Below, piece after piece: positions 34,979-53,658 of a stretch of 64,000 nucleotides of DNA. This stretch comes from Cognaticolwellia mytili. GTDB lineage: Bacteria > Pseudomonadota > Gammaproteobacteria > Enterobacterales > Alteromonadaceae. Below the pieces are notes generated by a model, which saw only the letters and a program-made list of their open reading frames with translations, ran no database searches and was not told the origin of the DNA. The stretch lies in contig NZ_NBOF01000002.1 in NCBI RefSeq assembly GCF_002104475.1, positions 434,001-498,000 of the forward strand, read 5' to 3'. Position numbers and translations under genes: made by a program. Each line of letters begins with the position of its first letter. The stretch's first letter is position 1.

Positions 34979-34997
34979 CTATCTATATCCTAAACGT

Positions 34998-36413: not shown

Positions 36414-36447
36414 AACTTCCCCTCACTTTGCTCAACTGCGCTAAGCA

Positions 36448-37506: not shown

Positions 37507-38091
37507 TTACAACCTATCTAAGGGGTTTTTATGTTTTTCTTCAAAACTGGTTGCTAAGGTAAGTAGTTGTCGGTTGCGCTGTTTAATAAACTTCGCCGGT
37601 TGACCTGCGTAAATCCCCCACTCAGCAAGAGAATGACTCACTAAAGACAAAGCCCCGACCGCAACACCTAAGCCAATAGTAACACTTGGCAATACCACAC
37701 TGTTGGCACCAATAATAACATGCTCTTTAATAACAACAGGTTTACTAAGTACATTCGTATAGGCACTATCAACCATAGGATTAGTCATATAATTACCCGA
37801 GTAATCATCGCTGCTACTATAAATAGCGACACGCGAGGAAATATTACAATAATCACCCAAGCTAATATTTGCTGCGCCAATAAGAGAACTATAAACGGCA
37901 ATATGAATATAATTACCAATAGTTATGCCCCCCTCACCAGCTGAAAGCACACAAAAATCATCAATACGGACGTTATTGCCAATGCTAATTCGACTAGCAC
38001 CATAAAATGATGCCTTACGGGAAATGCAGACATTACTACCAACAGCAGCAAATCCTAATTGCCGTAGTTCGTCATTGCTGTATATAGTCAT
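37507..38091 (-). CDS. Hexapeptide-repeat acyltransferase, possible sugar N-acetyltransferase
   Basis: The protein has 194 residues built of left-handed beta-helix hexapeptide repeats (for example ISIGNNVRIDDFCVLSAG, ITIGNYIHIAVYSSLIGA, ISLGDYCNISSRVAIY, VVIKEHVIIGANSVVLPSV), ending with GIYAGQPAKFIKQ. It resembles the CysE/LacA/NodL superfamily and acyltransferases of dTDP-amino sugars. Between wecF-like and the DegT aminotransferase it is well placed to N-acetylate the 4-amino sugar, replacing the GNAT-type WecD of E. coli. ATG at 38091 has AAGGA six bases upstream; the earlier TTG at 38097 has none. O-acetylation is an alternative. Confidence 0.85.
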   Translation of the reverse strand: MTIYSNDELRQLGFAAVGSNVCISRKASFYGASRISIGNNVRIDDFCVLSAGEGGITIGNYIHIAVYSSLIGAANISLGDYCNISSRVAIYSSSDDYSGNYMTNPMVDSAYTNVLSKPVVIKEHVIIGANSVVLPSVTIGLGVAVGALSLVSHSLAEWGIYAGQPAKFIKQRNRQLLTLATSFEEKHKNPLDRL

Positions 38092-38146
38092 CGGCAATCC
38101 TTAAATGTTTTGACTTGTTAATCGCAAAATCAATTTATTTCGTTAT

Positions 38147-39244
38147 TTAGTTCAAACTTATACGAACCCTTTCACAAATAAAATCAACATCCTCAATCGT
38201 TAGCGCTGTATACATCGGTAAACATAACACTCTTTGGGCTACATCATTTGCGATTGGTGTACGACCTTTCTTGCCATAAACATCAACCTGCGACAAACTT
38301 GGATAAAAATAACGTCGGGTCTGAATACCAGCATCATTTAGCTGTGCACTTAAGCTTAATAACATTGCTTCATTTTCAAGTAAAACAGGCATATAAGCGC
38401 CATTTCGCTCACCGTTTACGTGCCATTGCTGAAGCGTTATTCCAGCCACGTCAACTAGGTTAGCATGATAACGCTCAACGATTGCTTTACGACTCGCGGT
38501 GATATGGGCAATATCATCAAGTACCGCTAAACCCATAGCCGCATGCATTTCACTCATTTTTGCATTTATGCCAACGTATTGCGGCATATTGTCTTTATCA
38601 AAACCAAAATTAATTAACTGCTTAGCTTTTTCGTAATCTTCGCGCTTATTAAAAATTATCGCGCCGCCTTCTACGGCGTGAAATAACTTAGTTGCATGTA
38701 AACTCAAAGTTGATGCATCGCCATATTTTAGAACAGAGCTTAAAACAGAGCCTTGCTTATAGTCACTAGCAAACGCATGTGCGGCATCATAAATAACCTT
38801 TAATTGATTCTGTTCAGCAAAGCTCGCTATTTCTTCAACCTCGCAAGGGTTACCAAAAACATGCACGCCTAAAATAGCTGAAGCTTGCTCAGCTTGTGCA
38901 GCGGTAATGCTTTTATAATTAATATTTAAAGTTTCAGGGGCAATATCAATAAATACCGGTTTCAAGCCTTGCCAGCATAATGAACTTGCCGTTGCGGCAA
39001 ACGAAAAAGGCGTGGTTAATACCTCGCCTTTAACGCCAAGTGCCGCATAAGCTACTTGTAACGCTAATGTGCCGTTAGCTACTAGCAATAAATGCTCAAC
39101 ACCTAAATACTCAGCTAAACGCTGTTCAAGCTGTTGTAGCAATGGGCCATTATTGGTTAACCAATTACGTTCAAATACAGTTTCAATATGCTGTTGATAG
39201 CGAGAAAATTCAGGAAGGTAAGGTTTTACAATTGGGTATTGCAC
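38147..39244 (-). CDS. DegT/DnrJ/EryC1/StrS-type PLP sugar aminotransferase
   Basis: An aminotransferase of 365 residues. The substrate-entry segment NWLTNNGPLLQQLEQRLAEY, the aspartate in VIYDAAHAFASDY that binds the pyridine nitrogen, and the PLP lysine in SLHATKLFHAVEGG (near residue 183) are all present. With RfbA and RfbB it would give a dTDP-4-amino-4,6-dideoxy sugar (RffA/WecE or VioA/FdtB type); which epimer cannot be told by eye. The frame begins with GTG at 39244 and has no clear ribosome site. It is the first gene of the 39244-to-26945 polysaccharide run. Confidence 0.9.
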   Translation of the reverse strand: MQYPIVKPYLPEFSRYQQHIETVFERNWLTNNGPLLQQLEQRLAEYLGVEHLLLVANGTLALQVAYAALGVKGEVLTTPFSFAATASSLCWQGLKPVFIDIAPETLNINYKSITAAQAEQASAILGVHVFGNPCEVEEIASFAEQNQLKVIYDAAHAFASDYKQGSVLSSVLKYGDASTLSLHATKLFHAVEGGAIIFNKREDYEKAKQLINFGFDKDNMPQYVGINAKMSEMHAAMGLAVLDDIAHITASRKAIVERYHANLVDVAGITLQQWHVNGERNGAYMPVLLENEAMLLSLSAQLNDAGIQTRRYFYPSLSQVDVYGKKGRTPIANDVAQRVLCLPMYTALTIEDVDFICERVRISLN

Positions 39245-39418: not shown

Positions 39419-39445
39419 AAAAAACGCGCCGAAGCGCGTTTAAAA
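39419..39445 (-). terminator. Terminator with C(UUCG)G tetraloop after the S-layer-like gene
   Basis: Read on the minus strand, AAACGCGC, loop TTCG, GCGCGTTTTTTATT. The GC stem closed by the very stable C(UUCG)G tetraloop, followed by a T-run, lies about 45 bp after the stop. This suits a highly expressed gene. Confidence 0.85.
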
Positions 39446-39488
39446 AAATCGTTTATTTATTAAGCTTTATGCTCAATAACTTGACATA

Positions 39489-40837
39489 CTAGTGAGTACG
39501 TACACGATCTTGTGTTGCTTTGTGGAAGTAAATACCTTCAACTTGGATGTTAGCAGCAGGAGCATTAACAATAATGTTCAAGCCTGCGTTACCGTTAATA
39601 CCAGAAGCTTTAGCAAATTGTGCTACTTCAGTACTGATGTTAGTTACTGAATCAGCAGCAGCAGGAGCAACTAAAGTAGTCTTATATTCTGTGCCGTTAG
39701 CAAATAAAACAACAGAGATATCTCCAACAACTTTACCGTTATTAGTTACGGTAATTGATTGTGCATATTCATCACTGAAAGGCAAGAACGCTATATCATC
39801 AGATGAACCGTCTAAGCCCCAAGCACCAGCAGAAAGAGAATTTGTTGCTTTTGCAACAGCACCTGACTTAGGAGCATATGTAGCAGAAGTATCAACAGTA
39901 AACGCTTGGCTAGTAATTGTTGTATCACCTGCAGCATTACCAGCTGTAATAGTTAGACCAGACGCACCAAAACCAGCAGGGCCAGCAAATGCTACTGAAT
40001 CAACTTTAGCTGTAATAGCTGTTGCTGTAGAAGCTGCAGCTTGTGCAAACGGAGTCGTAATTTTATCAGTAGCTGTAATTTTTCCATCAGCATTTGTATC
40101 TAAAAAGTTAAAATCACCTTTAAGAGTAGTAGCCGTAGCTGAAGGTGCAGCACCTTGTAGAGCTAAACCAGCAATCCAGGCTTCACCTGCAGCTGGAGTA
40201 TAGTCAGAATATGTCACAATAACATCATCAGCATAAACTGGAGCAGCTGTAGTACCAAATTGAGTACGTAAAGTACCAACTTTTACTTCAGCATTAGCAG
40301 CAGTTGTAACTTTAACTAGGTATTGACTTACTGCTTTTTGAATAACTTTAGTGTTAGTCGTTGCAGAGTCAATTGCAATACCTGTGCTAGTTTCAGCAGA
40401 GAAAGTTACTGAAACAGTAGATGCAGCTACAGCAGAAGCCGTAGTCATTTTAACACCAGATAACGTTAAAGTATCACCAGTAAGGTTCGAGTGATCACCA
40501 GTAGCAGCTGTAACACGGTAAGTTAGTACATTTGCAGAAGTACTAATCAAGCCAACTGTCATAGTTGAAGCAGCACCAACATCAGCAAAAGCAACAGCAG
40601 GAACACTGTTCACTAAATCAAAATCAGCACCAGCGATAGTGAATTTAAGAATATCACCAACAGAATACTGAGCACCTAAAGCTACGATTGGAGTATCTAA
40701 TGCTACACCTGTTGCTTCATTAGCAATAAATTCAGCACCCATTAGAGCAACATTAGCAGTTGAACCAGTTACTTTTGCTGCACTTGCATTTAATGCTACT
40801 GCAGTTAAAGCTGCTGCAAGAAGAGTTTTTTAAACAT
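39489..40837 (-). CDS. S-layer-like secreted protein, coding frame broken in the signal peptide
   Basis: The continuous frame runs from 40742 (417 residues). An ATG at 40837 with AAAGGA upstream reads MFKK and then runs out of frame; adding one base to the A6 run gives MFKKTLLAAALTAVALNASA, a textbook signal peptide, joined to the long frame for 449 residues. The mature protein is rich in Ala, Thr, Val and Ser, acidic, without cysteine, and has a perfect EF-hand loop DTNADGKITATD (40065-40100). These are traits of S-layer proteins of marine gammaproteobacteria; identity is inferred. It has its own leader and strong terminator, and follows a T2SS operon that may export it. The break may be natural or a sequencing error. 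Confidence 0.75.
40826..40831 (-). other. A6 homopolymer with apparent one-base deletion
   Basis: On the minus strand the start reads ATG TTT then six A. With seven A the frame would join the rest of the gene; with six, translation stops after 10 codons. Causes could be a real mutation, slippage-based switching, or an assembly error. Confidence 0.7.
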
Positions 40838-41150
40838 TTTTAATTTCCTTTGTTTCATGAAACTTGACGTATTAAATAATTTTAATACCCAAGATTTTAT
40901 TTTCGTTAAATTTACACTTAGGTAGATTAACACTTAGGCCGTCGCCTAAGCGACTTTTAACAGTGTCTAAGTTTAAGCATTCAATTTCGCTTGTCAATAC
41001 TATTTTGACATTCTTATAGAATTAAAACAGTAAATCGATTAAAAATTAAACTACCAAATAACACCAACTTAACACTTGTTAGACGTTACCTAATTAATCA
41101 ATATTGTTCAAGCACTAAACAACAAAATATCATATGGAAAGTCAATTTAA
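40838..41150 (-). other. 313-bp leader and promoter region of the S-layer-like gene
   Basis: This contains no gene. On the minus strand it holds a promoter candidate, overlapping short inverted repeats at 40933-40954 (CTTAGGC..GCCTAAG and GTCGC..GCGAC, mutually exclusive), and AAAGGA just before the ATG. The rest is A/T-rich without recognised motifs. Confidence 0.6.
40970..40997 (-). promoter_or_regulatory. Sigma-70 promoter candidate for the S-layer-like gene
   Basis: On the minus strand TTGACA (40992-40997, perfect -35) is followed after 16 bp by TAAACT (40970-40975). Transcription would start near 40963, giving a 5' leader of about 125 nt before the ATG at 40837. Confidence 0.5.
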
Positions 41151-43265
41151 TCAATTAAGATCAATATTTTGAAATTTAACAGCAAATTTTGCTTTAATAT
41201 CTTCCCATTCATTACCAGACTCTATTATTTTAGGGGTAACTAAAACCACTAACTCTGTTTTGCCACCTGTGTCACTTGTGGTATCAAAAAGCTTTCCTAT
41301 CAATGGAATACTAGAAAAGAACGGCACACTAGTATCATTAATGGTACGTGTTTCACTGATTAAACCACCAAGAATAATGGTTTGTCCACTTTCTGCAACC
41401 ACTTCGGTTTTAATACTACGTTCAAGCAGGATAGGATTACCTGATACAGCACTACTACCTGCTGCTTGATTGTTAATTTCTTGGTCTATTTCCATAATGA
41501 CAGTACCGCGAGCATTAATAGTCGGCTTAACTTGTAGTTTTATACCTGTATTTAAATACACAACAGAGGTTGTTGTGGTGCCACTTTCTTGGACAATAGT
41601 TTCGCCAACGGTTGGTATTTTATCACCAACGGTAATATTAGCCGTTACGCCATCACGCACCAATAACGAAGGTCGTGACAAAACATTAACATTATCGTTT
41701 TTCTGAAGAAGGTTAATATTAAGCTTGCCATTATTACCGGTTAATAGATAAGTAAGCCCCTTAGCATCGCTGTCAAATTTGAAGCCGCCCGTTGGAGTCG
41801 CAGTACCTTGGTTAGTCAGCGAAAAGCTAACCCCTTGTTTAAATTCATCGGTGAGTTTTACTTCAGCAATCATTACTTCTAAAATCACTTGCTTAGGCAT
41901 CACGTCTAAGCGCTTAATTAATGGCAACAATTGACGATATTTGTCACCGGTAGCATTAAAAATTAGCGTATTAGCGCGTTCATCTACCACTAGCGCCATA
42001 TCTTCATTTGAAGAAAAAGAACTTTTACTGCCTTTATTAGCTGAGCTAGTATTTTGTTTATTTTGCCCTGCTGCTGAAGTTGTTGCTGATGGCTGTGTGC
42101 CTCGACTTCCTTTTCCTCCAATCAAAAGCTGCAAGCTTTCACCTAAATCTGCAGCGCGAGCAAACTTTGGCGCATACAAAAAGTACTGTAACTGGCTACC
42201 GCTTGGTACTTGGTCTATTTGTTTCGCCCAAAACGCAACACGTTCAATTAATTGTTTATCGTTTGCAAAAATAACCAGCGTGCCAATACGATCTAATGAC
42301 ACCATAGAAACCGCAAGATCGTTTTGTTTGCTGGCACTTACTGATATGCCTTCCTGCTTTAACAACTCAGGGAGCTTTTCAATTAATTCATCTGTGCTTA
42401 CGTACGTGCCTTTATAAACACCTATATGCCTATTTTTAAAAATAGGCTGATCCATAAGCTTCACAAACTCAAGTGCTTTAATGATTTCTTTACGCTTTCC
42501 TTGCAGTATTATATTGCTGCGCTGAAAGTCAGCAGAAGCCTTGACTGACATCAGCTGTTGTATGGTATTAGCAAGTGACGTTTGCATACCATAAACAAAT
42601 GGCACTAATTGAACAATAGTTTCGGAGGTATTTGGTACATCAGTAATATCTTGCCCATAGCCGTAAACAAGGTTTCCTTGACTACCACTGCCTTCTGCTT
42701 TGTGGATATAATAAATATCATCTTCAAAGCGAATAACATAACCACGTTCGCTTAGTAGCTGTTCACTAACATTAAATACTCTTTGTTGGCTGATGCTTTG
42801 TTGCAAGTTCAGTGTTACTGATTTGTTGTCGGCTTTAACTTGCTCGCCTAATATATAACTAACGCCTAATAAATCACCTAAAACATGGTGTAAGTAATCT
42901 TTTAATGGCAGGCTATCAGCGCTGAGTTGTAACAACTTAACAGCACTAAATTGTTGGGTTAGATCAACAGCGCTGACTTCATTAGCTTGCTTGGGTTGTA
43001 TAGATGATAAATAAGCAAGCCCCAACTTTTTATCTTCACTAGCAAGCAAATTCCCAGCACTATCAGAAAACTCAACCTTAGTCTTGCTTTCAGCTGTACT
43101 ATCGTTACTACTCTTATCCTGTAAATAAGAATCTCCGTTTAATTTGGGGTTTTGTGGCGAGCTAGCACACGCGCTAAGTGTTAAGGCTATTATTACACCT
43201 AAGGCGACGTACTTTAGTCTACTGATACAATTTTTATTGCTTATATTTTTATTGCTTTTCATCAT
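41151..43265 (-). CDS. gspD: Type II secretion system secretin, lipoprotein type
   Basis: The 704-residue outer-membrane channel has a lipoprotein signal ending in LTLSAC (Cys33), N-domains to about residue 390, a low-complexity Ser/Thr/Asn stretch (about 385-420), and the secretin core at about 455-690 with VILEVMIAEVKL, VPFFSSIPLIGKLF and TELVVLVTPKII. Lipidation of the secretin itself, known for HxcQ of Pseudomonas, would remove the need for a GspS pilotin; none is encoded here. It is the last T2SS gene, just upstream of the S-layer-like gene, which has its own promoter candidate. Order and neighbours exclude an MSHA or type IV pilus locus. Confidence 0.9.
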   Translation of the reverse strand: MMKSNKNISNKNCISRLKYVALGVIIALTLSACASSPQNPKLNGDSYLQDKSSNDSTAESKTKVEFSDSAGNLLASEDKKLGLAYLSSIQPKQANEVSAVDLTQQFSAVKLLQLSADSLPLKDYLHHVLGDLLGVSYILGEQVKADNKSVTLNLQQSISQQRVFNVSEQLLSERGYVIRFEDDIYYIHKAEGSGSQGNLVYGYGQDITDVPNTSETIVQLVPFVYGMQTSLANTIQQLMSVKASADFQRSNIILQGKRKEIIKALEFVKLMDQPIFKNRHIGVYKGTYVSTDELIEKLPELLKQEGISVSASKQNDLAVSMVSLDRIGTLVIFANDKQLIERVAFWAKQIDQVPSGSQLQYFLYAPKFARAADLGESLQLLIGGKGSRGTQPSATTSAAGQNKQNTSSANKGSKSSFSSNEDMALVVDERANTLIFNATGDKYRQLLPLIKRLDVMPKQVILEVMIAEVKLTDEFKQGVSFSLTNQGTATPTGGFKFDSDAKGLTYLLTGNNGKLNINLLQKNDNVNVLSRPSLLVRDGVTANITVGDKIPTVGETIVQESGTTTTSVVYLNTGIKLQVKPTINARGTVIMEIDQEINNQAAGSSAVSGNPILLERSIKTEVVAESGQTIILGGLISETRTINDTSVPFFSSIPLIGKLFDTTSDTGGKTELVVLVTPKIIESGNEWEDIKAKFAVKFQNIDLN

Positions 43266-43303
43266 ATTTTCTTAGCGTTGGCTTTTAATAAAGGTGGCTA
43301 TAT

Positions 43304-43870
43304 TTAGTTTTTGTACATGGTTAAGATAATCTTCTGGCTACGTCCATCAAACATTCTCACTAACTTAACTTGCGTATTTTTCTCAATGGTTAAGTGGTAA
43401 CCATAAATCTCACTATTGTGAGCATATTTTTCAATTTTTTCGCTACCAGTATTTATGTCAACAATTGATATTAACGCAACTGTTTTTTCAACACTATTTT
43501 CAACGGCTAAAGCATCATTACGAATAACGGCTTTTAACGATAATTTATTGTTATCAATAAAAACTTCTGTCAATTCTCCTTGCTGGTTATTTTGCTCATT
43601 CATTGACATACCAAAAATTTTGTTATCAGGAGACTCATCAATGATTTTTCCATACTTTTGGTAGCGTTGATTTAATTCGTTTACCATTGAAGCTGCTAGG
43701 TTAGGAGAGGCTATAGGTGTGACAATAGCATCATCTTTTTCTTTGATATTTAAAATATTATTCGGTAATAACCGGGTGCTAATGTCAAACATTGACCAAA
43801 CAATGCTTATGACTATTACCAATAAAGCTAGCTTATTGGTTAATAAAAATTTAATTTCATTCCAATTCAC
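43304..43870 (-). CDS. GspC-like inner-membrane T2SS protein without PDZ domain
   Basis: The protein has 188 residues with one N-terminal transmembrane helix (LALLVIVISIVWSMFDIS, about 14-31) and a periplasmic part with an HR-like beta segment around IFGMSMNEQ and LKAVIRNDALA. It looks like the homology region of GspC, which links the inner-membrane platform to the secretin, but it stops before a PDZ or coiled-coil domain. Its GTG start overlaps the gspM-like stop (GTGA), and secretin follows 38 bp later. Sequence similarity is weak by eye, so the assignment rests partly on gene order. Confidence 0.7.
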   Translation of the reverse strand: MNWNEIKFLLTNKLALLVIVISIVWSMFDISTRLLPNNILNIKEKDDAIVTPIASPNLAASMVNELNQRYQKYGKIIDESPDNKIFGMSMNEQNNQQGELTEVFIDNNKLSLKAVIRNDALAVENSVEKTVALISIVDINTGSEKIEKYAHNSEIYGYHLTIEKNTQVKLVRMFDGRSQKIILTMYKN

Positions 43871-44430
43871 GAGCTTCCCCCAACGTCATTAGCAAAAACA
43901 TTCAAAGTAATACGGCCATTTATACGCCCTAAATTGTTATTTTGTTGACCTTTAAGTGAAAGGTTAAACTTTGATATTTCAATAAACTGTTGATACGTTT
44001 CAAGCTCAGCTGTGAAATTTATTATATCAATAGTTTTTCCTTTAACGGTCAATTTGAGCGGGTAACGACTCTTAGATAAACTTGGCAACATGGTTAATGT
44101 TTGCCAACCGATATCTTGTAATGTAAGTTTATGTTTAGCTAACATTTTCTCAATTAACTTTTGTTGCTCAAGCTTAAAACTTGCAACTGATTTAAAGGTT
44201 GCGAAAAGAGGTCTTACTTGCTCAAGCTCAATTCCTAACGCTTTATTGAGACCAAGATTACTTGCGTTATTTGCAAGTACTTGTGTTATTTTATTTTGTT
44301 TTTTCTCAAGTTGGGTAATTTGTGCAATAAGTTCATCTTGCCATGTGATAATAGGTAAGAAAAGAAACTTCACTATGATCAGCAAAGCGATTATCGACAA
44401 GAGAAATGCATGTTTTTTTAGCTCTGCCAC
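43867..44430 (-). CDS. GspM/PilO-like T2SS assembly protein
   Basis: About 187 residues, with an N-terminal transmembrane helix (AFLLSIIALLIIVKFLFLPI), a coiled-coil (QDELIAQITQLEKKQNKITQ) and a small ferredoxin-like periplasmic domain. This is the GspM layout. The frame is open from 44463, but GTG at 44430 lies 2 bp after the gspL stop and has a G-rich ribosome site (GGGGGGAG), so it is chosen. It pairs with GspL in the inner-membrane platform. Confidence 0.75.
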   Translation of the reverse strand: MAELKKHAFLLSIIALLIIVKFLFLPIITWQDELIAQITQLEKKQNKITQVLANNASNLGLNKALGIELEQVRPLFATFKSVASFKLEQQKLIEKMLAKHKLTLQDIGWQTLTMLPSLSKSRYPLKLTVKGKTIDIINFTAELETYQQFIEISKFNLSLKGQQNNNLGRINGRITLNVFANDVGGSS

Positions 44431-44431
44431 A

Positions 44432-45688
44432 CTACTCCCCCCCTTTTCTATTATCAATTTCATTAACTATTACTGTCGGAATTTGCAACTTAAAACTAAT
44501 CACAAAAGAGTCTAGGTTACGCTGTTTACGTGTAGGAAAATCAAACTTTGCATCCATTACTTGCGGTTTTTTACTAAGTAATTCTAGTAAGCTCGTCGCA
44601 TTAAGTGTTTTTCCCCTTAAAACAAAACGCTCGTCTACTATTCTAATATTATTAAATTGAGCTTCAGGAAATAAGTCAGCAATAATAAGCCAAAATGGTG
44701 CCTTGTTTTCTGCCATGGCAAAAAACGCTTTGTTTGCTGAGTATGCTGCCCATTGTTGGTCAAAAAGTTGTTGCTGGCCAAGTGCTTGCGAAACTTCTTC
44801 ACTCTGTCTACTGAGTTTTTGCTGTAAATTATATTGTTTAGCAGTTAAATAAGCACTGGAAAGCGCCAAGTACAGTGATAAAGAAAGAAATAAAGGTAAG
44901 GATATATTTTTTAACAGTTGTAATTTACTTTCATTTTTGGGCAATCGAATGAAACTTGAAAGTACGGGTAACGATAACCGCTTAACACCTTGAACCACAT
45001 GATTTGCAAAGGTATTATCACCGGTTAGAGATTCAACATTTGAGTGTTCTGTTTTAGCGTTATCAATTTTAGATTCATTAAATGCCATTAAGCTCGTATC
45101 TGCACTCGGAATAACGCGTGTAGTTCCAGATATCGTAATACCTACTGATGTTGAAAAGCGACGACTGGTATTAATCAATGAAGAAGCTGGCAACGAAACT
45201 ATAGTTTCTGCCAATCGCCCTACATATAATAAATCGACATTATCATCCGATACAGCGGTTACTTGATGCTTATCTGCTGTAAGCGCAAGTAATAAAGTTT
45301 CAGGTAACATGATATTTGATTTTGGTATTGATTTATCAAATTGCCAAATGTTAACTTGGCTTTTTTCATTTACACTTTCCCAGTGGTGAAAATAGCTATG
45401 GTTTTCATCAGAAAACTCCAGTTGCAATAATTTTTTTAACTCGGCTTTGTTTTCTATCGGGTACTCTTTCGCTTGTTCTTTGTAAAAAGAGCGAGAAACG
45501 ATCAATATACTCGGTACATTGTCAGTAATTTCCGTTAGCACAAAGTTATGATTTTCATCTAAAGAAAATTTATGCAACTTTCCATTATAGTAGCCCAAAA
45601 AACGACATGTAAGCCACTTAAAAAACAATGAAACATTTGAAGTTTTCAGTGTTTTTTTTGATTTTATTGTTATAGATGAGAAATTCAA
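44432..45688 (-). CDS. GspL-like T2SS inner-membrane protein
   Basis: The protein has 418 residues: an N-terminal cytoplasmic part (about 1-240), one transmembrane helix (about 258-278; NISLPLFLSLSLYLALSSAY), then a coiled-coil (LQQKLSRQSEEVSQALGQQQ) and a PilN-like periplasmic domain ending FVISFKLQIPTVIV. This resembles GspL, which tethers GspE to the membrane. The start at 45688 is a TTG with no strong ribosome site; translation probably couples to gspK, whose stop lies a few bases upstream. Confidence 0.75.
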   Translation of the reverse strand: MNFSSITIKSKKTLKTSNVSLFFKWLTCRFLGYYNGKLHKFSLDENHNFVLTEITDNVPSILIVSRSFYKEQAKEYPIENKAELKKLLQLEFSDENHSYFHHWESVNEKSQVNIWQFDKSIPKSNIMLPETLLLALTADKHQVTAVSDDNVDLLYVGRLAETIVSLPASSLINTSRRFSTSVGITISGTTRVIPSADTSLMAFNESKIDNAKTEHSNVESLTGDNTFANHVVQGVKRLSLPVLSSFIRLPKNESKLQLLKNISLPLFLSLSLYLALSSAYLTAKQYNLQQKLSRQSEEVSQALGQQQLFDQQWAAYSANKAFFAMAENKAPFWLIIADLFPEAQFNNIRIVDERFVLRGKTLNATSLLELLSKKPQVMDAKFDFPTRKQRNLDSFVISFKLQIPTVIVNEIDNRKGGE

Positions 45689-45691
45689 AAT

Positions 45692-46588
45692 TTACCCATT
45701 TGTGGCAAAAATATTGATGGGTGCTTGAAATGCATTGGCATATGGATTTAACTCTACAATAATTTTTTTATAAACTTTTGAAGAGCCGACAGCCCCTTCA
45801 AGTTCAATTGCTAATATATTTGATGGATATAGTAATACTTTTTCACTATCAACAATGCCCGTAAGTTGGCTAAACTGCCTCGTTGATAGTTGATTGCTTT
45901 CACGTCGTTGTATTATTTGCTCTGCAATCTCAATGTTTGTAATTGCCACTAATAATTGCTTTGGCGAATTCATTGGATTAAAAAAGCCTTTACTGTTTAA
46001 AGTGGTATTTTTTAATAACGATTGATGTAATTCACTTGAAACATTTTTAACAAACTTTGAATCATGCAAGTCAGGGAATGCTCCATTTCTTATGGATTGC
46101 ATTGCACCGAGCGATTCATTGCCATTTGTGCGAGGGATGTTATCAAGATCTTGCCAATCTAACAAGTTATCGAAAATAACATTTGTTTCATTTGTTGTAT
46201 GCCCAACATGAGCGATCAATTTTTTGAGTATTTTTGCATCAGGAAAATGTGCATTAATTAATGCTGACTGATCTTGAATTTTAACCGTTACTTGCTTGCT
46301 AATGTTAAAAGGAAGGGCAAAAAAGTTCCAACGTTTGTTAATTGCTTGACCTGACACCTCAGCATTGCTTTCTGACTGGACTTTTTTATTGGTTAATAGC
46401 TCAAACAACAATTCAGCTTCAGCACTATGAACAGCAACTAATGCAGTTGCTTTATCATCAGACCATTGTGCAACTTTCACCTGATCTTTTGCCGTAGTTG
46501 TTAAATACATTGCCAATACAGATAAAACAGCGGTGATCAATAGTATCTGAATTAATGCTATGCCCTGAACTTTGTTTGATAAATGCAT
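45692..46588 (-). CDS. gspK: GspK-like large minor pseudopilin
   Basis: About 298 residues. The N-terminus has a prepilin-like segment (KVQGIALIQILLITAVLSVL) lacking Glu5, as is usual in GspK. The large body contains LLDWQDLDNIPRTNGNES and the FSQLTGI / NPYANAF region, typical of the helical GspK domain at the tip of the pseudopilus. ATG at 46588 is preferred over the frame start at 46621, because it overlaps the gspJ stop (TAATG) and follows AAGGA. Confidence 0.85.
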   Translation of the reverse strand: MHLSNKVQGIALIQILLITAVLSVLAMYLTTTAKDQVKVAQWSDDKATALVAVHSAEAELLFELLTNKKVQSESNAEVSGQAINKRWNFFALPFNISKQVTVKIQDQSALINAHFPDAKILKKLIAHVGHTTNETNVIFDNLLDWQDLDNIPRTNGNESLGAMQSIRNGAFPDLHDSKFVKNVSSELHQSLLKNTTLNSKGFFNPMNSPKQLLVAITNIEIAEQIIQRRESNQLSTRQFSQLTGIVDSEKVLLYPSNILAIELEGAVGSSKVYKKIIVELNPYANAFQAPINIFATNG

Positions 46589-47295
46589 TATTGATTTTCC
46601 TTGAAATAAGGTGACAACCAACGCTCAGGCCTTGCTTCCAACTGAATAGGTATACTTAAGTCTTTTCCTGCTTGTGTTAGCGTTACAGCATACTTTTCAG
46701 GCATTATTTGGTTATTAATACCTGAAAAACGTGTATACCATTGCGCCTTTTTACCTTTTTTATCTAAAGCATTTTTTTCATATAAATGCGGCCAACCATA
46801 ATAACTAAACTGGACATTATCTAAATTTGAAAACAAAACTAATTGATGCGTAAAGTTGATACTTTGATCTGTACCTTTAAGTAATATCTGTTCTGTAGAT
46901 GCTGATTGATAAATTAAATCTACTTTACCTTCTCCTGCATCTATCGTACTTAAACGAAAAATTTCAGGATAATCGCCACTAAACAGTCCTGAGCGACTGA
47001 CAGCAAGCAAACTGTTATCATCACCAATAAAGAAAAATGATGGTTTTTTATTATCGTCTACCACGACATATGGCTGAACACCTTCAAGTAATCTCTGTAT
47101 TAATTCCAAATGCTTATAGTTTTTAGCTGAATGATTAAATTGACCTAGTTCTTTATTCCAGCGCTCAGACATTAAACTATAAGTATACGAGCCAGTAAAA
47201 AGCAGTAATGATAAAATTGAGATAGCGATCATCAACTCTACCAAGGTAAAGCCTTGATTTTTCGCTCTTTTTTTATAGTTTTGAAGACTATTCAT
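46588..47295 (-). CDS. gspJ: GspJ-like minor pseudopilin
   Basis: This 235-residue protein carries the prepilin signature NQGFTLVELMIAISILSLLL; cleavage falls after Gly15 with Glu5 of the mature helix present. The globular part has several beta strands and ends with a WLSPYF tail. The order H-I-J-K, with a short gap on one side and an overlap on the other, identifies it as the J position of the pseudopilus tip. Confidence 0.82.
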   Translation of the reverse strand: MNSLQNYKKRAKNQGFTLVELMIAISILSLLLFTGSYTYSLMSERWNKELGQFNHSAKNYKHLELIQRLLEGVQPYVVVDDNKKPSFFFIGDDNSLLAVSRSGLFSGDYPEIFRLSTIDAGEGKVDLIYQSASTEQILLKGTDQSINFTHQLVLFSNLDNVQFSYYGWPHLYEKNALDKKGKKAQWYTRFSGINNQIMPEKYAVTLTQAGKDLSIPIQLEARPERWLSPYFKENQ

Positions 47296-47297
47296 AA

Positions 47298-47756
47298 CTA
47301 ATCACTTGACCAACTTAATTCATTAAATTGATGTTGCTGAGTTAAGTTTTTATAGCTTAACGTTAAGTTAACTTGCCATAATTTGTATTTTAATGGCTGG
47401 GTGGTAAGTTGATGAGTAACTGGGTCTAATTTTTTCGGCGCCCCTTTATTTGAGACTAACTCAGCTTGCCATTGATAATTCACATCCCAAGTAGTATTTT
47501 TTTCACTTATTTGAGTGCTATTAGAATTACCTTGCTGCCGAATTGAGGTTCTTATATTAGCAAGCACAGAGGGTAATACGCCTGCGATAACAATGTGGCT
47601 ATTTGCTTTTTCACTACTTAAAAAAGCACCTCGATAAACCATAGAAACAAGCGCAATTGAAGAAAATAAAATAACGGAGGCAACTAAAACCTCTATTAAA
47701 GTAAAGCCGTTATTATTTTTAGCTGAAAACGATTTATAAAGGTGAATGTTATTCAT
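47298..47756 (-). CDS. gspI: GspI-like minor pseudopilin
   Basis: The protein has 152 residues and a prepilin signature NNGFTLIEVLVASVILFSSI with Gly at the cleavage site and Glu5. It is a short minor pseudopilin, as expected for GspI. ATG at 47756 overlaps the gspH stop by 8 bp; a longer start at 47780 with eight extra residues is possible. Neither has a good ribosome site. It precedes gspJ by 2 bp. Confidence 0.8.
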   Translation of the reverse strand: MNNIHLYKSFSAKNNNGFTLIEVLVASVILFSSIALVSMVYRGAFLSSEKANSHIVIAGVLPSVLANIRTSIRQQGNSNSTQISEKNTTWDVNYQWQAELVSNKGAPKKLDPVTHQLTTQPLKYKLWQVNLTLSYKNLTQQHQFNELSWSSD

Positions 47757-48180
47757 CAATAGTAATTGCCGTTTCATCATTTACCCATTGGCTAAGGTTA
47801 ATCACCATAGGCTTACCTCGAAAGGTACCGGAGAGTAATTTAGGACTAACGAAACCTTTTGCGCTGTAGCTGAGTTGTTGCGGTTGAAAAAATAACGATT
47901 CAAAGGTTTTATTTTCAATCGGAGATAATGCTTCTCCTTTTAAATGAAGAATAATATTTTTTCCTGAAAACTTAACAACATGTTCTTTTCCTGTTGTAAA
48001 AGCACGAAAGCTTACTTTTTTCAACCAGTTTTTCACCGTTAGCATTTCTTGTTTTGCTTGCGCTTTTTCTAAACTATTTATTGCCAGAGGCCCAACCATG
48101 CCCATTAAGAGCGCAACAATAGACATGACTATCATTAATTCAATAAGCGTGAAGCCACGTGGCTGAATTTTACCTTTCAT
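47749..48180 (-). CDS. gspH: GspH-like minor pseudopilin
   Basis: The protein has 143 residues. The prepilin motif PRGFTLIELMIVMSIVALLM has Gly at the cleavage site and Glu5. The C-terminal part resembles a GspH fold with a basic RGKPMVINLSQW segment. It is the first gene after the MntA-HepT pair and directly adjoins the hepT stop, so the toxin-antitoxin genes interrupt the T2SS between F and H. Confidence 0.8.
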   Translation of the reverse strand: MKGKIQPRGFTLIELMIVMSIVALLMGMVGPLAINSLEKAQAKQEMLTVKNWLKKVSFRAFTTGKEHVVKFSGKNIILHLKGEALSPIENKTFESLFFQPQQLSYSAKGFVSPKLLSGTFRGKPMVINLSQWVNDETAITIDE

Positions 48181-48182
48181 AT

Positions 48183-48602
48183 TTAATTAAGTGTTATTGC
48201 CAGTGATTTAACTTCTTTAATAAAGTCTTCAAAGTCAGTTAAGTGGTTTTCTATCACATGTTTTACAATGTCTATATTGAGTTCTTGATAGTCGTGCACT
48301 GCAATATTTCTCAGCCCAATCATTTTCTTTAAGCTATTACTTACTCTTTCCGACAATACACCGTGCTTTTTTAATAACTCAAAACTATCTTTGCTACTTT
48401 GAGGTATGCCAGTTTTTTTTATTTTATTAATATAATTAGCAACATCTATTGTTGCTTCGCAAGCACGCTGCAAGTTTAAAATTACTGAGTCTTGTTTGGT
48501 ATAATCAATAGAGAAGTCACTACCCGCTTGAGCGTAAACATCCCTTATACGTAGCAAGCACCGAGCAATTGTTGAAAGCTTATTTATAATGACATCATTC
48601 AT
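48183..48602 (-). CDS. hepT: HepT-type HEPN ribonuclease toxin
   Basis: About 139 residues, mostly helical. The catalytic RX4-6H motif, here RNIAVHDY, matches the HepT pattern RX4HXY with the Tyr that MntA-type partners AMPylate. HepT toxins cleave RNA (often tRNA) and are silenced by their partner. ATG at 48602 is likely; TTG at 48611 is an alternative. It lies 15 bp after the antitoxin gene. Embedding in a T2SS operon is odd. Confidence 0.85.
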   Translation of the reverse strand: MNDVIINKLSTIARCLLRIRDVYAQAGSDFSIDYTKQDSVILNLQRACEATIDVANYINKIKKTGIPQSSKDSFELLKKHGVLSERVSNSLKKMIGLRNIAVHDYQELNIDIVKHVIENHLTDFEDFIKEVKSLAITLN

Positions 48603-48617
48603 ATTTTTCAATTCTAT

Positions 48618-49004
48618 TTATTCAGCGAAAAACTGTAAAAGAATATCTTTACGCTCTTCATTTAAATGTTGATACATAGACATTATGTGCATTGAAAATT
48701 TATCAGCAGTTTTCTGAGGATCATAAATACATATTCCGTTATGAATGATCTCGTTTTGCATAACAGTAGAGGCTGATAATAAATCAACAAAATCAACAGA
48801 CTGGTTTAAATTGTCGGCTAATTCGCTAGCGTAATTCCATCGGTCAACAGTATTTAATTTGCAATCTAACAATATGGCTATATCTAAATCGCTACCAACA
48901 CTTGCCGTTCCTGAAGCATGAGAGCCAAACAAATAAATTAGTTTTACTTTGGGTATTAAGTTTACCACAGCATGGGTAATACGATTTTGTAATGATTTAG
49001 CCAT
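48618..49004 (-). CDS. mntA: MntA-type nucleotidyltransferase antitoxin
   Basis: About 128 residues. The minimal nucleotidyltransferase motif is clear: LFGSHASGTASVGSDLDIAI, i.e. GSX9-10(G/S)DXD. Such MNT proteins adenylylate the HEPN toxin and so neutralise it (type VII toxin-antitoxin). ATG at 49004 has a strong ribosome site, AAGAGGG, four bases before it; the frame is open further, to 49052, but without support. Tandem 8-bp repeats lie just upstream. Confidence 0.85.
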   Translation of the reverse strand: MAKSLQNRITHAVVNLIPKVKLIYLFGSHASGTASVGSDLDIAILLDCKLNTVDRWNYASELADNLNQSVDFVDLLSASTVMQNEIIHNGICIYDPQKTADKFSMHIMSMYQHLNEERKDILLQFFAE

Positions 49005-49053
49005 ACTGCCCTCTTGTATTACGTTATTGGTCAAATAAGTAAATATCTTCAAT

Positions 49054-49077
49054 AATCAATGAATCAATGAATCAATG
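49054..49077. repeat. Tandem 8-bp repeat ATCAATGA x3
   Basis: Three perfect head-to-tail copies of ATCAATGA, followed by the partial copy ATGATTC, lie between gspF and mntA. They may mark the insertion site or a regulatory element; copy number may vary. Confidence 0.8.
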
Positions 49078-49128
49078 AATGATTCTATTATTTACTTAAA
49101 CAATTTAGTCTGCCAAATTATTCTTATA

Positions 49129-50331
49129 CTATATACCCATTTCGTTAATAGATACCATACTCATCAACATAACAACAACAACACCACCAACAAAGCCGCC
49201 CATAAAAAGTATCATTAAAGGCTCTAATAATGTTGTCATGCGATCAGCCCAACTTTCGAACTCTTGCCGTGAACGGTTAGCAATTTCATCGAATACACGT
49301 TCTAAATTGCCTGATTCTTCGCCCACTTCTAACAATGAGATATAAAAATCGGGATAGAGTGAAGTTTGTTTTAATGCAGGTGTAAGTGCGCTACCACTTT
49401 TAACTTTCTTTTTAGCAATTTCAAGCTCACGTTTTAGTGCCGTATTCTTTATATTACCTGCCGATAAACCAATAGCTCGGTCAATTTGTACTCCTGCTTT
49501 TACCATCATCGCTAAGCCACTATTAAAACGAATACGCTCAACGGTAATTATCGCTTTCTTCATTATTGGTAGTTTAAGACTTATTTTTTGCCACCACTTT
49601 ACGAATTCAGGCTTCTTAGCCAGCGTTATGATACCAAATATACTAGTAATAACCCCCACCACTAATAACCCTTGATATTGTAGCATCCATTCACTAGCAG
49701 AAAGCATAGCACTGGTATACCAAGGCAAAGAGTCAACGTCATTAAACATGACCGCCATTTTGGGAATAATAAAGTTAAAAATAAAAAATATACTTAACAT
49801 ACAAACAAAAAATATCACCATTGGATAAGCTAAAGAGCTAATTATTTTTCGTTGTAATTCTCGTCTAAACTTTAGGTCTTTGGCTAGTCCGTCAAATATT
49901 TCGCTTAAATTACCCGACGCTTCACCTAGCTCAATAAGGTTGCAGTAAAGCGGGTCAAATATATCGTCATGAGCTTTGAATGAATCAGATAAGCTTTTGC
50001 CTTTTTTTAGGTTGCTGCTAATGTCGGTCAATAATTTTGCTAAGGCGGGTTTTGCTTTGGTACGCTTTATAATATCAATACCGCGATCAATTCTAACACC
50101 TGACTCAAGTAACAAGCTGAGCTCTGCGGTTAAAAACTCTAGATCAGCAAGCGATACTTTGCTTGAAAAGCCAAAAACACTCTTGCCTGTGTCGCTAAGG
50201 TCTTTTACTTCAGTGGTCAATAAGCCTTGCTGTTTAAGCTGTGCCAGTACCGCGGTTTTGTCACTTGACTCTATTTGCCCATCAACTTTTGCGCCAGAGC
50301 TATCGTAGGCTTTATAGCTAAACAGTGCCAT
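49129..50331 (-). CDS. gspF: T2SS inner-membrane platform protein GspF
   Basis: The 400-residue protein has two repeated T2SSF domains (about 65-185 and 268-390) with three transmembrane helices, the typical GspF/PilC form. Motifs: ELSLLLESGVRIDRGIDIIK, LIELGEASGNLSEIFDGLA and LLEVGEESGNLERVFDEIAN. It overlaps gspE by one base. Downstream, after about 80 bp, the operon is interrupted by mntA-hepT. Confidence 0.95.
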   Translation of the reverse strand: MALFSYKAYDSSGAKVDGQIESSDKTAVLAQLKQQGLLTTEVKDLSDTGKSVFGFSSKVSLADLEFLTAELSLLLESGVRIDRGIDIIKRTKAKPALAKLLTDISSNLKKGKSLSDSFKAHDDIFDPLYCNLIELGEASGNLSEIFDGLAKDLKFRRELQRKIISSLAYPMVIFFVCMLSIFFIFNFIIPKMAVMFNDVDSLPWYTSAMLSASEWMLQYQGLLVVGVITSIFGIITLAKKPEFVKWWQKISLKLPIMKKAIITVERIRFNSGLAMMVKAGVQIDRAIGLSAGNIKNTALKRELEIAKKKVKSGSALTPALKQTSLYPDFYISLLEVGEESGNLERVFDEIANRSRQEFESWADRMTTLLEPLMILFMGGFVGGVVVVMLMSMVSINEMGI

Positions 50332-51983
50332 TAGCCAGCTACTCGTACAACTTCGTCAACTGTAGTTAAACCTAAAATGGCCTTATATAAACCATCTTCA
50401 AGCAAGGTTCTACGCTGCATGTTGGCATTATGCTTTTTAGCTTTTGGAATGAAATCTGAATCTTTTGGCATGGCTTTGATTTCTTCATCACAGCGCAAAT
50501 ACTCAGTAACAGCCATGCGGCCTTTGTAACCTGAATGAGAACAATTGTCACAACCTACACCGTGCATAAGTGATATTTCCGGTAGTGAAAATTTATCCGC
50601 TAAGGTTTTTAATTGATACTTTTCAATAATTTTTTCAGCATCAGGATGTGGCTCTGCACACTCGCTGCATATTTTTCGCGCTAAACGCTGGGCAACAATT
50701 GAAACAAGCGCCGCATTTAATAAGAACTCCTCTACACCTAAATCAAGCAAACGTGTGTAGGCACTTGCTGCGTCATTGGTATGTACGGTTGAAAATACTA
50801 AATGCCCTGTAAGCGCTGATTGCAATGCTATTTGCGCGGTTTCTTTATCGCGTATTTCACCTAACATAATAATATCAGGATCTTGTCGTACAATGCTTCG
50901 CAGCCCTGCTGAGAAGTCAAAACCTATGTCACTGTTCACTTGTACTTGGTTAATGCCCGGCAGTTGATATTCAACAGGATCTTCAAGGGTAATAATTTTT
51001 ACGTCATCGTTATTTAAGGCATTTAAAAAGGTGTATAAGGTCGTTGTTTTACCTGACCCCGTAGGTCCTGTCAGTAACACGACACCAGCTGTAGTTTTTA
51101 TATCTTCACGTATCATGGTTTCGATATCGTTAGACAAGCCTAATACTGACATATCGTATTGCACATTATCTTTGCGTAAGAAACGTAACACCATTGATTC
51201 ACCGTCATTTAATGGCAGTGCTGAGACACGAATATCGAGTTCTTGATTGGCAATTTTCATTTCTATTTTGCCATCTTGCGGCCGTCTTTTTTCTGCAATA
51301 TCCATACCTGAAAGTATTTTTAAGCGTGTAACAATCGGCAATTGCATTCTAGGTGCTAGTATTTCTGCCTCATGTAATACTCCATCAACTCTAAACCTCG
51401 CTCTATAGCGACCTTTATAGGGCTCAAGGTGCATATCTGACGCACCTTGACGTAACGCTCGAGAGATAAGAGAGTTGAGAAGGTTTACAGTCGGCGCTTC
51501 AGTCGCTAACTCTCTTAATCGTTCTTCTTCATCACCAGTAAATTCTTCATGATCAACAGTAGACTGTTGCTGATCGAACTTACTCGACAAGGCTTGAATA
51601 TCAGACTCATCAGCAAGTAAAATAGTTGCCGTTATATTTTGCTGGCTAAGCCATTCATTAACCGATAATTCTAGCGGAAAACGACAAGCAAATGTCCAAT
51701 TATTATCAACTTTAGCTAAAGGTATCCACTGCTTCTCCAACAAAAAAGTCAAGACCTTGGACTCGATACTAATCGTTTTTTGCTCTTGCCACTCGGCTAT
51801 GTCTAGCAAAGGAAGAGCAAGATACTTGCTGTAAAGAATAGGAACTTGATCATCGGGTAAACTACCCATATTAACAAGTATTTGATCTAAACGACCACCG
51901 AAACGACTTTGATAACTTTCCGCCCGACTTAAGTCTTCAGGCAAGATGTTAAATTGCTCAACCAACAACTGATTCAATTGCAT
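50331..51983 (-). CDS. gspE: T2SS assembly ATPase GspE
   Basis: The 550-residue secretion ATPase powers pseudopilus assembly. It has an N-terminal GspE domain (about 1-150), Walker A GPTGSGKTTTLYTFL near residue 303, the Asp box ITLEDPVEYQLPGINQVQV, Walker B region IIMLGEIRDKETAQIALQSA, His box LVFSTVHTNDA, and a zinc-binding CSEC...CDNC motif near residues 443-475. It overlaps gspG and gspF by one base each (TAATG). The zinc motif and length match GspE/PilB. Confidence 0.95.
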   Translation of the reverse strand: MQLNQLLVEQFNILPEDLSRAESYQSRFGGRLDQILVNMGSLPDDQVPILYSKYLALPLLDIAEWQEQKTISIESKVLTFLLEKQWIPLAKVDNNWTFACRFPLELSVNEWLSQQNITATILLADESDIQALSSKFDQQQSTVDHEEFTGDEEERLRELATEAPTVNLLNSLISRALRQGASDMHLEPYKGRYRARFRVDGVLHEAEILAPRMQLPIVTRLKILSGMDIAEKRRPQDGKIEMKIANQELDIRVSALPLNDGESMVLRFLRKDNVQYDMSVLGLSNDIETMIREDIKTTAGVVLLTGPTGSGKTTTLYTFLNALNNDDVKIITLEDPVEYQLPGINQVQVNSDIGFDFSAGLRSIVRQDPDIIMLGEIRDKETAQIALQSALTGHLVFSTVHTNDAASAYTRLLDLGVEEFLLNAALVSIVAQRLARKICSECAEPHPDAEKIIEKYQLKTLADKFSLPEISLMHGVGCDNCSHSGYKGRMAVTEYLRCDEEIKAMPKDSDFIPKAKKHNANMQRRTLLEDGLYKAILGLTTVDEVVRVAG

Positions 51984-52378
51984 TATTTGTGTACTATATC
52001 TTCATTATTGTCAGTACCACCGGGTTGGCCGTCAGCCGCGTAAGACATTATTTTATAGGGATTTCCATTATCCCCTGGTGTGGTGTACACATATGGGTTT
52101 TTCCACGGATCAAGTGGCACTTCTTTTGGTAAATATGGTCCATCCCAACGTGGTTTATCGCTTTTTCTTAACTCTTCTAAAGTCGACGGATAAGCTCCCA
52201 TATCAAGTCTATAGGTATCCAGTGCTGTTTCAAATGCATTCATTTGTGCCGAAGCTATACCGCGTTCAGCAGTACCTAATTGAGAGAAAAATTTAGGGGC
52301 AACGAGTGAGGCTAACAAGCCTAAGATAACAATAACGATGAGTAGTTCGATCATCGTAAAACCTGTATTTTTGCGCAT
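51983..52378 (-). CDS. gspG: Major pseudopilin GspG
   Basis: The 131-residue protein has a short leader, MRKNTG, then FTMIELLIVIVILGLLASLV with Glu5, and a body with DLGAYPSTLEEL, WDGPYLPKEVPLDPWKNPYV and TPGDNGNPYKIMSYAADGQPG, followed by GTDNNEDI. This is the T2SS-G signature with its calcium site. It is the first gene of the T2SS operon, so the promoter should be within 52379-52587; no consensus promoter was found there by eye. Confidence 0.95.
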   Translation of the reverse strand: MRKNTGFTMIELLIVIVILGLLASLVAPKFFSQLGTAERGIASAQMNAFETALDTYRLDMGAYPSTLEELRKSDKPRWDGPYLPKEVPLDPWKNPYVYTTPGDNGNPYKIMSYAADGQPGGTDNNEDIVHK

Positions 52379-52587: not shown

Positions 52588-53658
52588 TTAACGATTAATA
52601 ACTCGAATAAACTTCCACGCATGTTGCAAGGCGTAGGAATAACACAAAAACAAGCTAATAAAGAGCGTTAACATTATCCAATCGTTTATTAATAAGTACT
52701 CTCCCAATACACCAAAAGATGCAAGCGCGATAGAAAAAACACTGATCACTCTTAATGCTTGTCTGGAGGATAATCCTGCACGCATACAAATGTGGTGCAA
52801 ATGACCATTGTCCGCTTTAAATGGTGAATCACCTTTTCTTATTCTTCTTATCATAATGGCAAACATGTCCATTAAAGGCACAGCGATTACCCACAATGCG
52901 GTCACTGGCCTAAAAGATGCCACTTGTGTACCTTGAGTTTGTGAGCCTAGCACTAACAGCCACATCACAGTTAACCCCATGAACATGCTGCCTGCATCAC
53001 CCATGAATATTTTTTTACCACGTGGATTTCGTGTACTAACGTTATAAAATAAATAAGGAAGAGTCGCGACAACAAGTATAAGTGGCAATAGTACGTCAGC
53101 ATTGTTATTGGCAAGTAACGTTAGAATTGCTACTGATGAAATAGAAATAATACTCATAGACCCAGCCAAACCATCAATGCCATCAATCATATTAAAAGCA
53201 TTAATCGCTGCGATACACGCAAGCATGGTAAATATCATGCCATAGCCTTCAATATCGACATTGCCAATCAAGTGAAAATAACCGAATTCATGAATATATA
53301 TTCCGCCACCAAAAACCATAATAGTGGCAACAATACCTTGAAAAATAATTCTAGGGGCAACATTTAAATCGTAAATATCGTCCATCGTGCCGATAAATAC
53401 TAATAAAGCTGAAGATATTAAATAAAGATTAAGTAACTGACTTTGTTCGACGAATATGCTTGACGCTATTAGCACGCCAGTAAAAATAGAAAGCCCGCCA
53501 ATTAAGGGAATTGCACCATCGTGTTTTTTTCTTTCATTGGGTAGGTCAACTAAACCAACATGAGGAGCTAACGGTAATAATGCTTTGATTGTCAAAATTG
53601 ACACAGAGAATGCAACAAATAAAGCAAGGGAGAATATAAGCATTAAATAATTAACCAA
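52588..53658 (-). CDS. WecA-like undecaprenyl-phosphate GlcNAc-1-phosphate transferase
   Basis: The 356-residue membrane protein has about 11 helices and family GT/MraY motifs: PNERKKHDGAIPLIGGLSIF, GTMDDIYDLN, AINAFNMIDGIDGLAGSMSI, KIFMGDAGSMFMGL and DNGHLHHICMRAGLS. It starts O-antigen/ECA synthesis by moving GlcNAc-1-P onto undecaprenyl phosphate. The start is TTG 53658 or ATG 53643; neither has a clear ribosome site. It lies between the Wza-like gene and the T2SS operon on the same strand. Confidence 0.92.
   Translation of the reverse strand: MVNYLMLIFSLALFVAFSVSILTIKALLPLAPHVGLVDLPNERKKHDGAIPLIGGLSIFTGVLIASSIFVEQSQLLNLYLISSALLVFIGTMDDIYDLNVAPRIIFQGIVATIMVFGGGIYIHEFGYFHLIGNVDIEGYGMIFTMLACIAAINAFNMIDGIDGLAGSMSIISISSVAILTLLANNNADVLLPLILVVATLPYLFYNVSTRNPRGKKIFMGDAGSMFMGLTVMWLLVLGSQTQGTQVASFRPVTALWVIAVPLMDMFAIMIRRIRKGDSPFKADNGHLHHICMRAGLSSRQALRVISVFSIALASFGVLGEYLLINDWIMLTLFISLFLCYSYALQHAWKFIRVINR

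Follow-up and report, generated by a model that had tools for sequence, protein, structure and literature searches.

What is the secreted protein whose gene closes a type II secretion system (T2SS) cluster in Cognaticolwellia mytili, how would it leave the cell, and what might set its level? The stretch of DNA analyzed, hereafter the window, comprises 64,000 nucleotides of contig NZ_NBOF01000002.1 (assembly GCF_002104475.1, positions 434,001–498,000 of the forward strand). We think it probable that the window contains a locus for the surface-layer (S-layer) protein Slr4, with export by a dedicated T2SS, assembly into a lattice and a conserved leader before slr4. The system, its gene order and an insert within it are known; the slr4 leader and a group of remote Slr4 relatives seem to be new.

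Few cellular proteins are as abundant as S-layer proteins. The part of the Pseudoalteromonas tunicata account available to us reports that slr4 lies directly 3′ of a T2SS cluster in this species and its relatives, suggesting a dedicated export operon, that an slr4 knockout of P. tunicata loses its S-layer, a paracrystalline lattice, and that Slr4 homologs occur in Colwellia (PMC7821379). According to the available part of a second study, the abundance of Slr4 in P. tunicata rises from about 2% to 7.5% over biofilm growth (PMC12153261). An earlier note on the window, made from its letters, had proposed a dedicated export and anchoring module for an S-layer protein, in what may be a little-described system. 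Family membership, gene order and co-occurrence support the core of that proposal, an S-layer protein with a dedicated T2SS, but the Slr4 system was already in print, as the available parts of two papers show (PMC7821379; PMC11094555).

The gene in question and its immediate landmarks are as follows.

39489–40837, minus strand: slr4, gene for the S-layer protein, frame lost (sequence, PF19526 match and frame comparison)
40826–40831, minus strand: run of six A, just past the first slr4 codons, where the frames diverge (sequence and frames)
39422–39441, minus strand: intrinsic terminator 3′ of slr4 (terminator scan)

The encoded protein matches the whole Slr4 profile of Pfam (PF19526, positions 1–370 of 370, E = 3e-46, 158.8 bits against a cut-off of 25) and, judged by its sequence, belongs to the Slr4 S-layer family. 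The earlier note had described a secreted protein of 449 residues; the family fits, but an intact 449-residue gene is not present, as the frame is lost and an open frame of 417 amino acids is left. This frame encodes no cysteine and the gene is followed by a strong terminator (39441–39422), both as the note had stated. An EF-hand-like loop is also present, but a similar pattern occurs in just 15 of 48 Slr4 sequences, and the EF-hand was therefore dropped as a hallmark of the family.

The minus-strand run described in the note, GspG-E-F-[MntA, HepT]-H-I-J-K-L-M-C-D, is borne out at 52378–41151, with slr4 after gspD.

51983–52378, minus strand: gspG, major pseudopilin (TIGR01710 over cut-off)
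50331–51983, minus strand: gspE, ATPase with an MshEN-type N-terminal domain (T2SSE, 2.8e-123; MshEN, 33.2 bits, cut-off 23.1)
49129–50331, minus strand: gspF (T2SSF, 4.8e-56)
47749–48180, minus strand: gspH-like minor pseudopilin (N_methyl)
47298–47780, minus strand: gspI-like minor pseudopilin (N_methyl)
46588–47295, minus strand: gspJ-like minor pseudopilin (N_methyl)
45692–46621, minus strand: gspK (T2SSK_1st just under cut-off)
44432–45688, minus strand: gspL-like (weak PilN match under cut-off)
43867–44463, minus strand: gspM-like (position and recurrence)
43304–43870, minus strand: gspC-like (position and recurrence)
41151–43265, minus strand: gspD, secretin with a lipobox-like N-terminus (family match and lipobox pattern)

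Family matches are clear for D, E, F and G, so that a secretin, an ATPase, an inner-membrane platform and a major pseudopilin are all present. H, I and J were recognized by their pilin N-terminal motifs, K and L score just under the Pfam cut-offs, and M and C, which have no Pfam match, were assigned from their position and their recurrence in relatives. GspG alone is over the cut-off of its NCBIfam equivalog model; D, E and F are below theirs.

Co-occurrence was surveyed in 196 genomes of the family (labels beginning with G) and 81 loci (labels beginning with L, plus the window). By their secretin, 57 loci were classed as Slr4-type (L044–L096, L100, L104, L122 and the window; L088 is the locus of G106). 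Slr4 is present in 57 of the 196 genomes, and 79 contain a match to the secretin of the window with E no higher than 1e-30. Among the 54 genomes with the strongest secretin matches (428 bits or more), 53 have Slr4; conversely, 55 of the 57 Slr4 genomes have a secretin match at E = 1e-30. Within the window's genus, Slr4 occurs in 2 of 17 genomes, and the strong secretin in those very two; at the level of the order, Slr4 was found in 14 of 295 sampled genomes. The complete core gene order recurs in 52 of the 57 Slr4-type loci and is thus not peculiar to this island, as the note had supposed. Judged by its own profile, slr4 adjoins gspD in 54 of them; the exceptions are L088, L095 (contig end) and L104, where the gene adjoining gspD coincides with the Pfam Slr4 match of G082. 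The note had asked whether the protein is widespread without this T2SS, or whether the genes part company in relatives, and neither was seen (53/54 genomes; 54/57 loci). Several genomes or loci show two to four Slr4 matches (L056, L072 and L084; G075, G082, G102 and G153). For carriage of slr4 on plasmids, no match was found.

T2SS machines often export several substrates, and this cluster could be a second general export machine for which Slr4 is one cargo among many. Three genomes weigh against an exclusive pairing of protein and machine: G081 and G158 match Slr4 but have no secretin match, and G106 keeps the strong secretin together with wza and wecA at L088, with no Slr4 found. The contig of G106 ends nearby, but the missing Slr4 is not merely a result of this; a glycosyltransferase-like open reading frame on the other strand follows gspD and occupies the place of slr4, and the contig ends 2.4 kb further on. 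The retained cluster of G106 is what a general machine would allow. The near one-to-one co-occurrence and the adjacency of slr4 and secretin argue against it, as do sister clusters (below) that adjoin a large secreted protein of their own, and we consider a general machine improbable.

A secretin tree, built by a quick method and with long branches flagged, places 54 rows of the Slr4 group and the window in one branch with a support of 100. L097, L100, L104 and five Slr4-less "tier 2" rows adjoin this branch, and the other T2SS-like secretin of the genome (contig C41) lies far from it. The two Slr4-type secretins of the genus do not group together: the window's is placed beside G148 and the other elsewhere in the tree, as would fit separate acquisition.

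A strict lipobox pattern matches 49 of the 57 secretins, and in the remaining 8 inspection by eye finds a GC among the first 60 residues; the lipobox suggests that the secretin targets itself. Hxc-type T2SSs have a lipidated secretin. The window's system may be likened to them by description, through the lipobox-like N-terminus of its secretin and the MshEN-type domain of its GspE, but cargo and gene set differ. Since that domain scores over its Pfam cut-off, we would guess that export answers to cyclic di-GMP. The GspE N-termini of the loci, inspected by eye, share letters like GGRLEQILVNMG. Closer to the window is P. tunicata D2, where a PF19526 protein likewise lies directly 3′ of a T2SS with GspG, E, F, K, D and others (available part of PMC7821379); the window differs in the frame loss of slr4 and in the MntA/HepT pair inside its cluster. 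The same part of that paper names an Aeromonas S-layer (VapA/AhsA) with T2SS-type export. This is an analogy by description, and Slr4 is the nearer known system.

Two features lie immediately 5′ of slr4.

40852–40863, minus strand: conserved motif of the leader, GTTTCATGAAAC, followed by the ribosome site (AGGA at 40849–40846) (motif comparison)
40864–40892, minus strand: hairpin P1, its 3′ arm directly next to the motif (local folding energy −5.6 kcal/mol)

The motif has the form NTTTC(AT/TA)GAAAN′, with the ribosome site within a few bases. A strict count over the 58 slr4 genes with a profile score of 100 or more found it at 49, with outer letters GC in 31, AT in 14 and TA in 4, always complementary. 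Among seven Slr4 loci of other families in the order, it is exact in four, in a G·U form in two and absent from one. In a named collection, some genomes of which are shared with the main survey, it lies near slr4 in 25 of 27 Slr4-matching loci; none was found in L105–L121. Alignment of 52 leaders, 49 of them distinct, gave an outer pair of GC in 31, AU in 15 and UA in 3, and unpaired in none, and the next two pairs outward fail in 19 and 30 of the 49. Since the leaders were selected by their core, its invariance in this alignment follows from that selection; no such constraint applied to the outer pair.

The firm element of the leader is P1. Its mean energy over 52 leaders, a set that includes one leader on the wrong strand, is −7.2 kcal/mol, compared with −2.0 kcal/mol for dinucleotide shuffles and −2.5, −1.7 and −1.9 kcal/mol for stretches slid by 6, 12 and 20 bases. 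It reaches −5 kcal/mol or lower in 39 of the 52, against 7, 3 and 8 of the slid stretches. In 60 less similar leaders the mean is −8.9 kcal/mol on the mRNA strand and −6.5 kcal/mol on the opposite strand (p = 1.7e-6). Sliding these by 8, 16 and 30 bases gave −3.2, −3.7 and −5.5 kcal/mol, with −5 kcal/mol or lower reached by 52 of 60 at P1 and by 15, 19 and 32 of the slid stretches. The arms vary in sequence, with 33 different 5-base arms among 41 hairpins from 45 representatives. When 29 leaders were aligned to a covariance model, 10 of 13 pairs varied on both sides; cells with both sides changed numbered 67 against 27.3 in shuffles, none of 500 of which was as high, in an alignment that itself favors the structure. 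Folding of four whole leaders gave z-scores of −2.6 (window), −1.7, −2.4 and −3.4 and placed P1 in the minimum-energy structure of three; the window's fold shows only a variant of P1, in the centroid.

Covariance model R1, from 8 seeds, was searched against 81 sources (1.34 Mb) at E up to 1. Of its 55 matches, 48 are on the mRNA strand and 7 on the opposite one, and each of the 55 covers a motif. Model R2, from 29 leaders, was searched against the 196 whole genomes with E up to 0.05 and matched 28, of which 27 have Slr4 and the other is G052 (E = 0.042); this amounts to 27 of 57 Slr4-positive and 1 of 139 Slr4-negative genomes. The plain pattern TTTCATGAAAN{1,6}RGGA, searched in 20 Slr4 genomes and 20 others, has a single match in the window's genome, at slr4. 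Among the 37 matches listed, 16 belong to slr4 leaders and come from 15 of the 20 Slr4 genomes; the other 21 lie away from slr4, compared with 31 for a backwards control. The leader is thus conserved, covarying, biased to the sense strand and nearly restricted to slr4.

Several observations weigh against a leader that is uniform and structured throughout. Of the 58 slr4 genes, nine did not pass the strict motif count; two of these are broken copies (L081 and L123), although the motif does occur before the first part of the broken L081 gene, and the failures include second slr4 copies in L056, L072 and L084. R1 has no mRNA-strand match in 33 of the 81 sources, the window included, and R2 finds just 27 of the 57 Slr4 genomes and misses the window's. 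P1 was itself selected for pairing, and fair stability is also seen after a shift of 30 bases, which points to other hairpins upstream of P1. The motif core forms a minimum-energy hairpin of its own in none of the four whole-leader folds; it may accordingly be unpaired, pair between molecules or act as DNA. This last reading, in which the palindrome is an operator for a dimeric transcription factor, gains from the absence of a core hairpin and from the perfect dyad symmetry, which is maintained when the center switches from CATG to CTAG. An operator sits poorly with a motif placed only a few bases from the ribosome site, with the greater stability of the abutting hairpin on the mRNA strand and with the two loci of another family in which the motif pairs only via G·U. 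We regard a DNA operator as doubtful and favor an RNA element.

A promoter of slr4's own, suggested in the note (TTGACA at 40997, TAAACT to 40970), was rejected as a sigma-70 promoter; the region contains 3 such sites against a shuffle mean of 5.3 and is not above chance. Rfam gave no match at gathering score for the window stretch or for 5 related loci. An rsmX hit at 39419–39484 scored 30.2 bits against a gathering score of 56, overlaps the terminator and is probably due to chance. The literature searches yielded no description of slr4 control; among the papers listed, none was on an slr4 or S-layer leader, and a search by the letters of the motif brought up no S-layer study. A keyword search of the available part of PMC7821379 found no mention of the leader, and the available part of the Cognaticolwellia mytili account mentions neither leader nor frame loss (PMC11094555). 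As far as these literature and Rfam searches go, the slr4 leader seems to be new.

The slr4 gene itself is broken in this assembly. The ATG at 40837–40835 is followed by a stop after 10 codons, and the Slr4 frame is lost straight past the start codon. That frame is open from just 3′ of the A run at 40831–40826 and includes signal-peptide-like codons. Its earliest ATG, GTG or TTG, at 40742, lies beyond the signal-peptide-like stretch and gives the 417-residue frame (40742–39489). An intact slr4 with a Sec signal peptide is thus missing here, and because the frame is lost within the signal peptide, no export of Slr4 is expected from the genome as sequenced. A programmed frameshift at the run of A was judged unlikely, because its letters give no usual slippery heptamer in that frame. 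Relatives are intact at this site, with proteins that start MFKKTL- or similar. That intactness, the position at a single-base run and the open reading of the remaining cluster genes would fit a sequence or assembly error, with the gene whole in the cell. Set against an error are three further genomes with a broken slr4, of other kinds and in other places: the frame is shifted near codon 70 in L077 and, where a short tandem repeat lies, near residue 290 in L081, and in L123 slr4 is fused in sequence with gspF, the intervening genes missing. That S-layers can be lost in culture is also well known. An error has, in our estimate, slightly less than an even chance. The frame loss in the window may reflect a genuine loss, a reversible off state or an error in the sequence; the other three breaks may likewise be real losses, switching or assembly faults.

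Slr4 also has relatives that the Pfam model does not reach. Thirteen loci with weaker secretins (L106 and L109–L120) follow another operon plan, with K to E in one direction and L to D in the opposite one. Near gspK each has a secreted-looking protein of 444–594 amino acids with an MLNKK- start, often with a second paralogue. PF19526 matches none of these 13 proteins at E = 0.1, but a profile of them aligns with Slr4 over 418 columns with 98.9% probability (hhalign, E = 1e-17). A neighboring set of 7 matches the gspK-side group at E = 3.5e-53, and the secretins of the group form one branch in the tree. A third cargo group (archIII: L105, L107 and L108), with proteins of 566–567 amino acids beside a T2SS cluster ordered E-F-G, resembles Slr4 over 55 columns of the C-terminal part (94%); because the resemblance is confined to these columns, it was not counted as Slr4. 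The remote relatives seem to be new, although no search for earlier descriptions was made.

The cassette lies among glycan genes.

52588–53658, minus strand: wecA-like (TIGR02380 over cut-off)
53811–56576, minus strand: Wza/SLBB-type polysaccharide export protein (profile search)
33191–39244, minus strand: glycan genes for a DegT aminotransferase, a hexapeptide transferase, a GT56-type transferase, a flippase and an asparagine-synthase-like protein (profile search)

The WecA-like/Wza-like pair upstream and the further glycan genes downstream were all found where the note had put them. In the wider set, wza and/or wecA lie upstream in 40 of 54 eligible Slr4-type loci, and 17 of the 57 have neither within the stretch fetched. 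All 17 genomes of the genus have wza. In the 16 stretches fetched after it, wecA is found in 14; what follows wecA is gspG in G196, as in the window, other genes in 12, and the end of the stretch in one. The glycan surroundings of the slr4 cassette are therefore real and recurrent, and the cassette adjoins wecA in the genus.

Two further genes interrupt the operon.

48183–48611, minus strand: hepT, type VII toxin of the inserted pair (157.8 bits, cut-off 60)
48618–49052, minus strand: mntA, antitoxin of the inserted pair (104.8 bits, cut-off 60)

Both equivalog models are over cut-off and the genes are adjacent, between gspF and gspH, as for a HepT/MntA type VII toxin–antitoxin pair. The available part of PMC11094555 describes the slr4 neighborhood of Cognaticolwellia mytili with the same components, namely Slr4, an upstream T2SS and two inserted genes (PF18765 and HepT-like). 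The earlier note had spoken of inserts of the island's own; the pair was indeed matched in the window alone among the 81 loci, but it is already published. Its place inside the operon could mean that it belongs to the S-layer system, for example by keeping the cluster in the genome. Its restriction to the window and the interpretation of the AnnoView authors, who regard it as a mobile insert (available part of PMC11094555), make such a role very improbable.

We propose, at even chances, that slr4 genes share a cis-acting RNA outside Rfam, a covarying hairpin on an invariant core, that is read by a trans factor setting the level of Slr4 post-transcriptionally, with loss or switching of the coat gene as a second control. 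In this scheme a Sec signal peptide would bring Slr4 into the periplasm, from which the dedicated T2SS (GspG-E-F-H-I-J-K-L-M-C-D) would export it to form a lattice on the cell; export by this T2SS is predicted from sequence, and surface glycan may anchor the layer. Expression of slr4 would pass through P1, the motif UUUC(AU/UA)GAAA and the ribosome site. Acting at the RNA level, the leader may affect how stable the mRNA of this very abundant protein is or how well it is translated, with the invariant core recognized by some factor. Candidates are a protein, a small RNA and, because the core is self-complementary, another copy of the leader itself; the level of Slr4 might then differ, for example, between planktonic and biofilm cells. 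The second control on the coat would be loss or switching of slr4 itself, of which the four broken genes may be instances. The conserved leader offers a direct place to look for the control of slr4, and the remote relatives missed by Pfam suggest that T2SS-borne surface layers are commoner in this bacterial family than the model shows.

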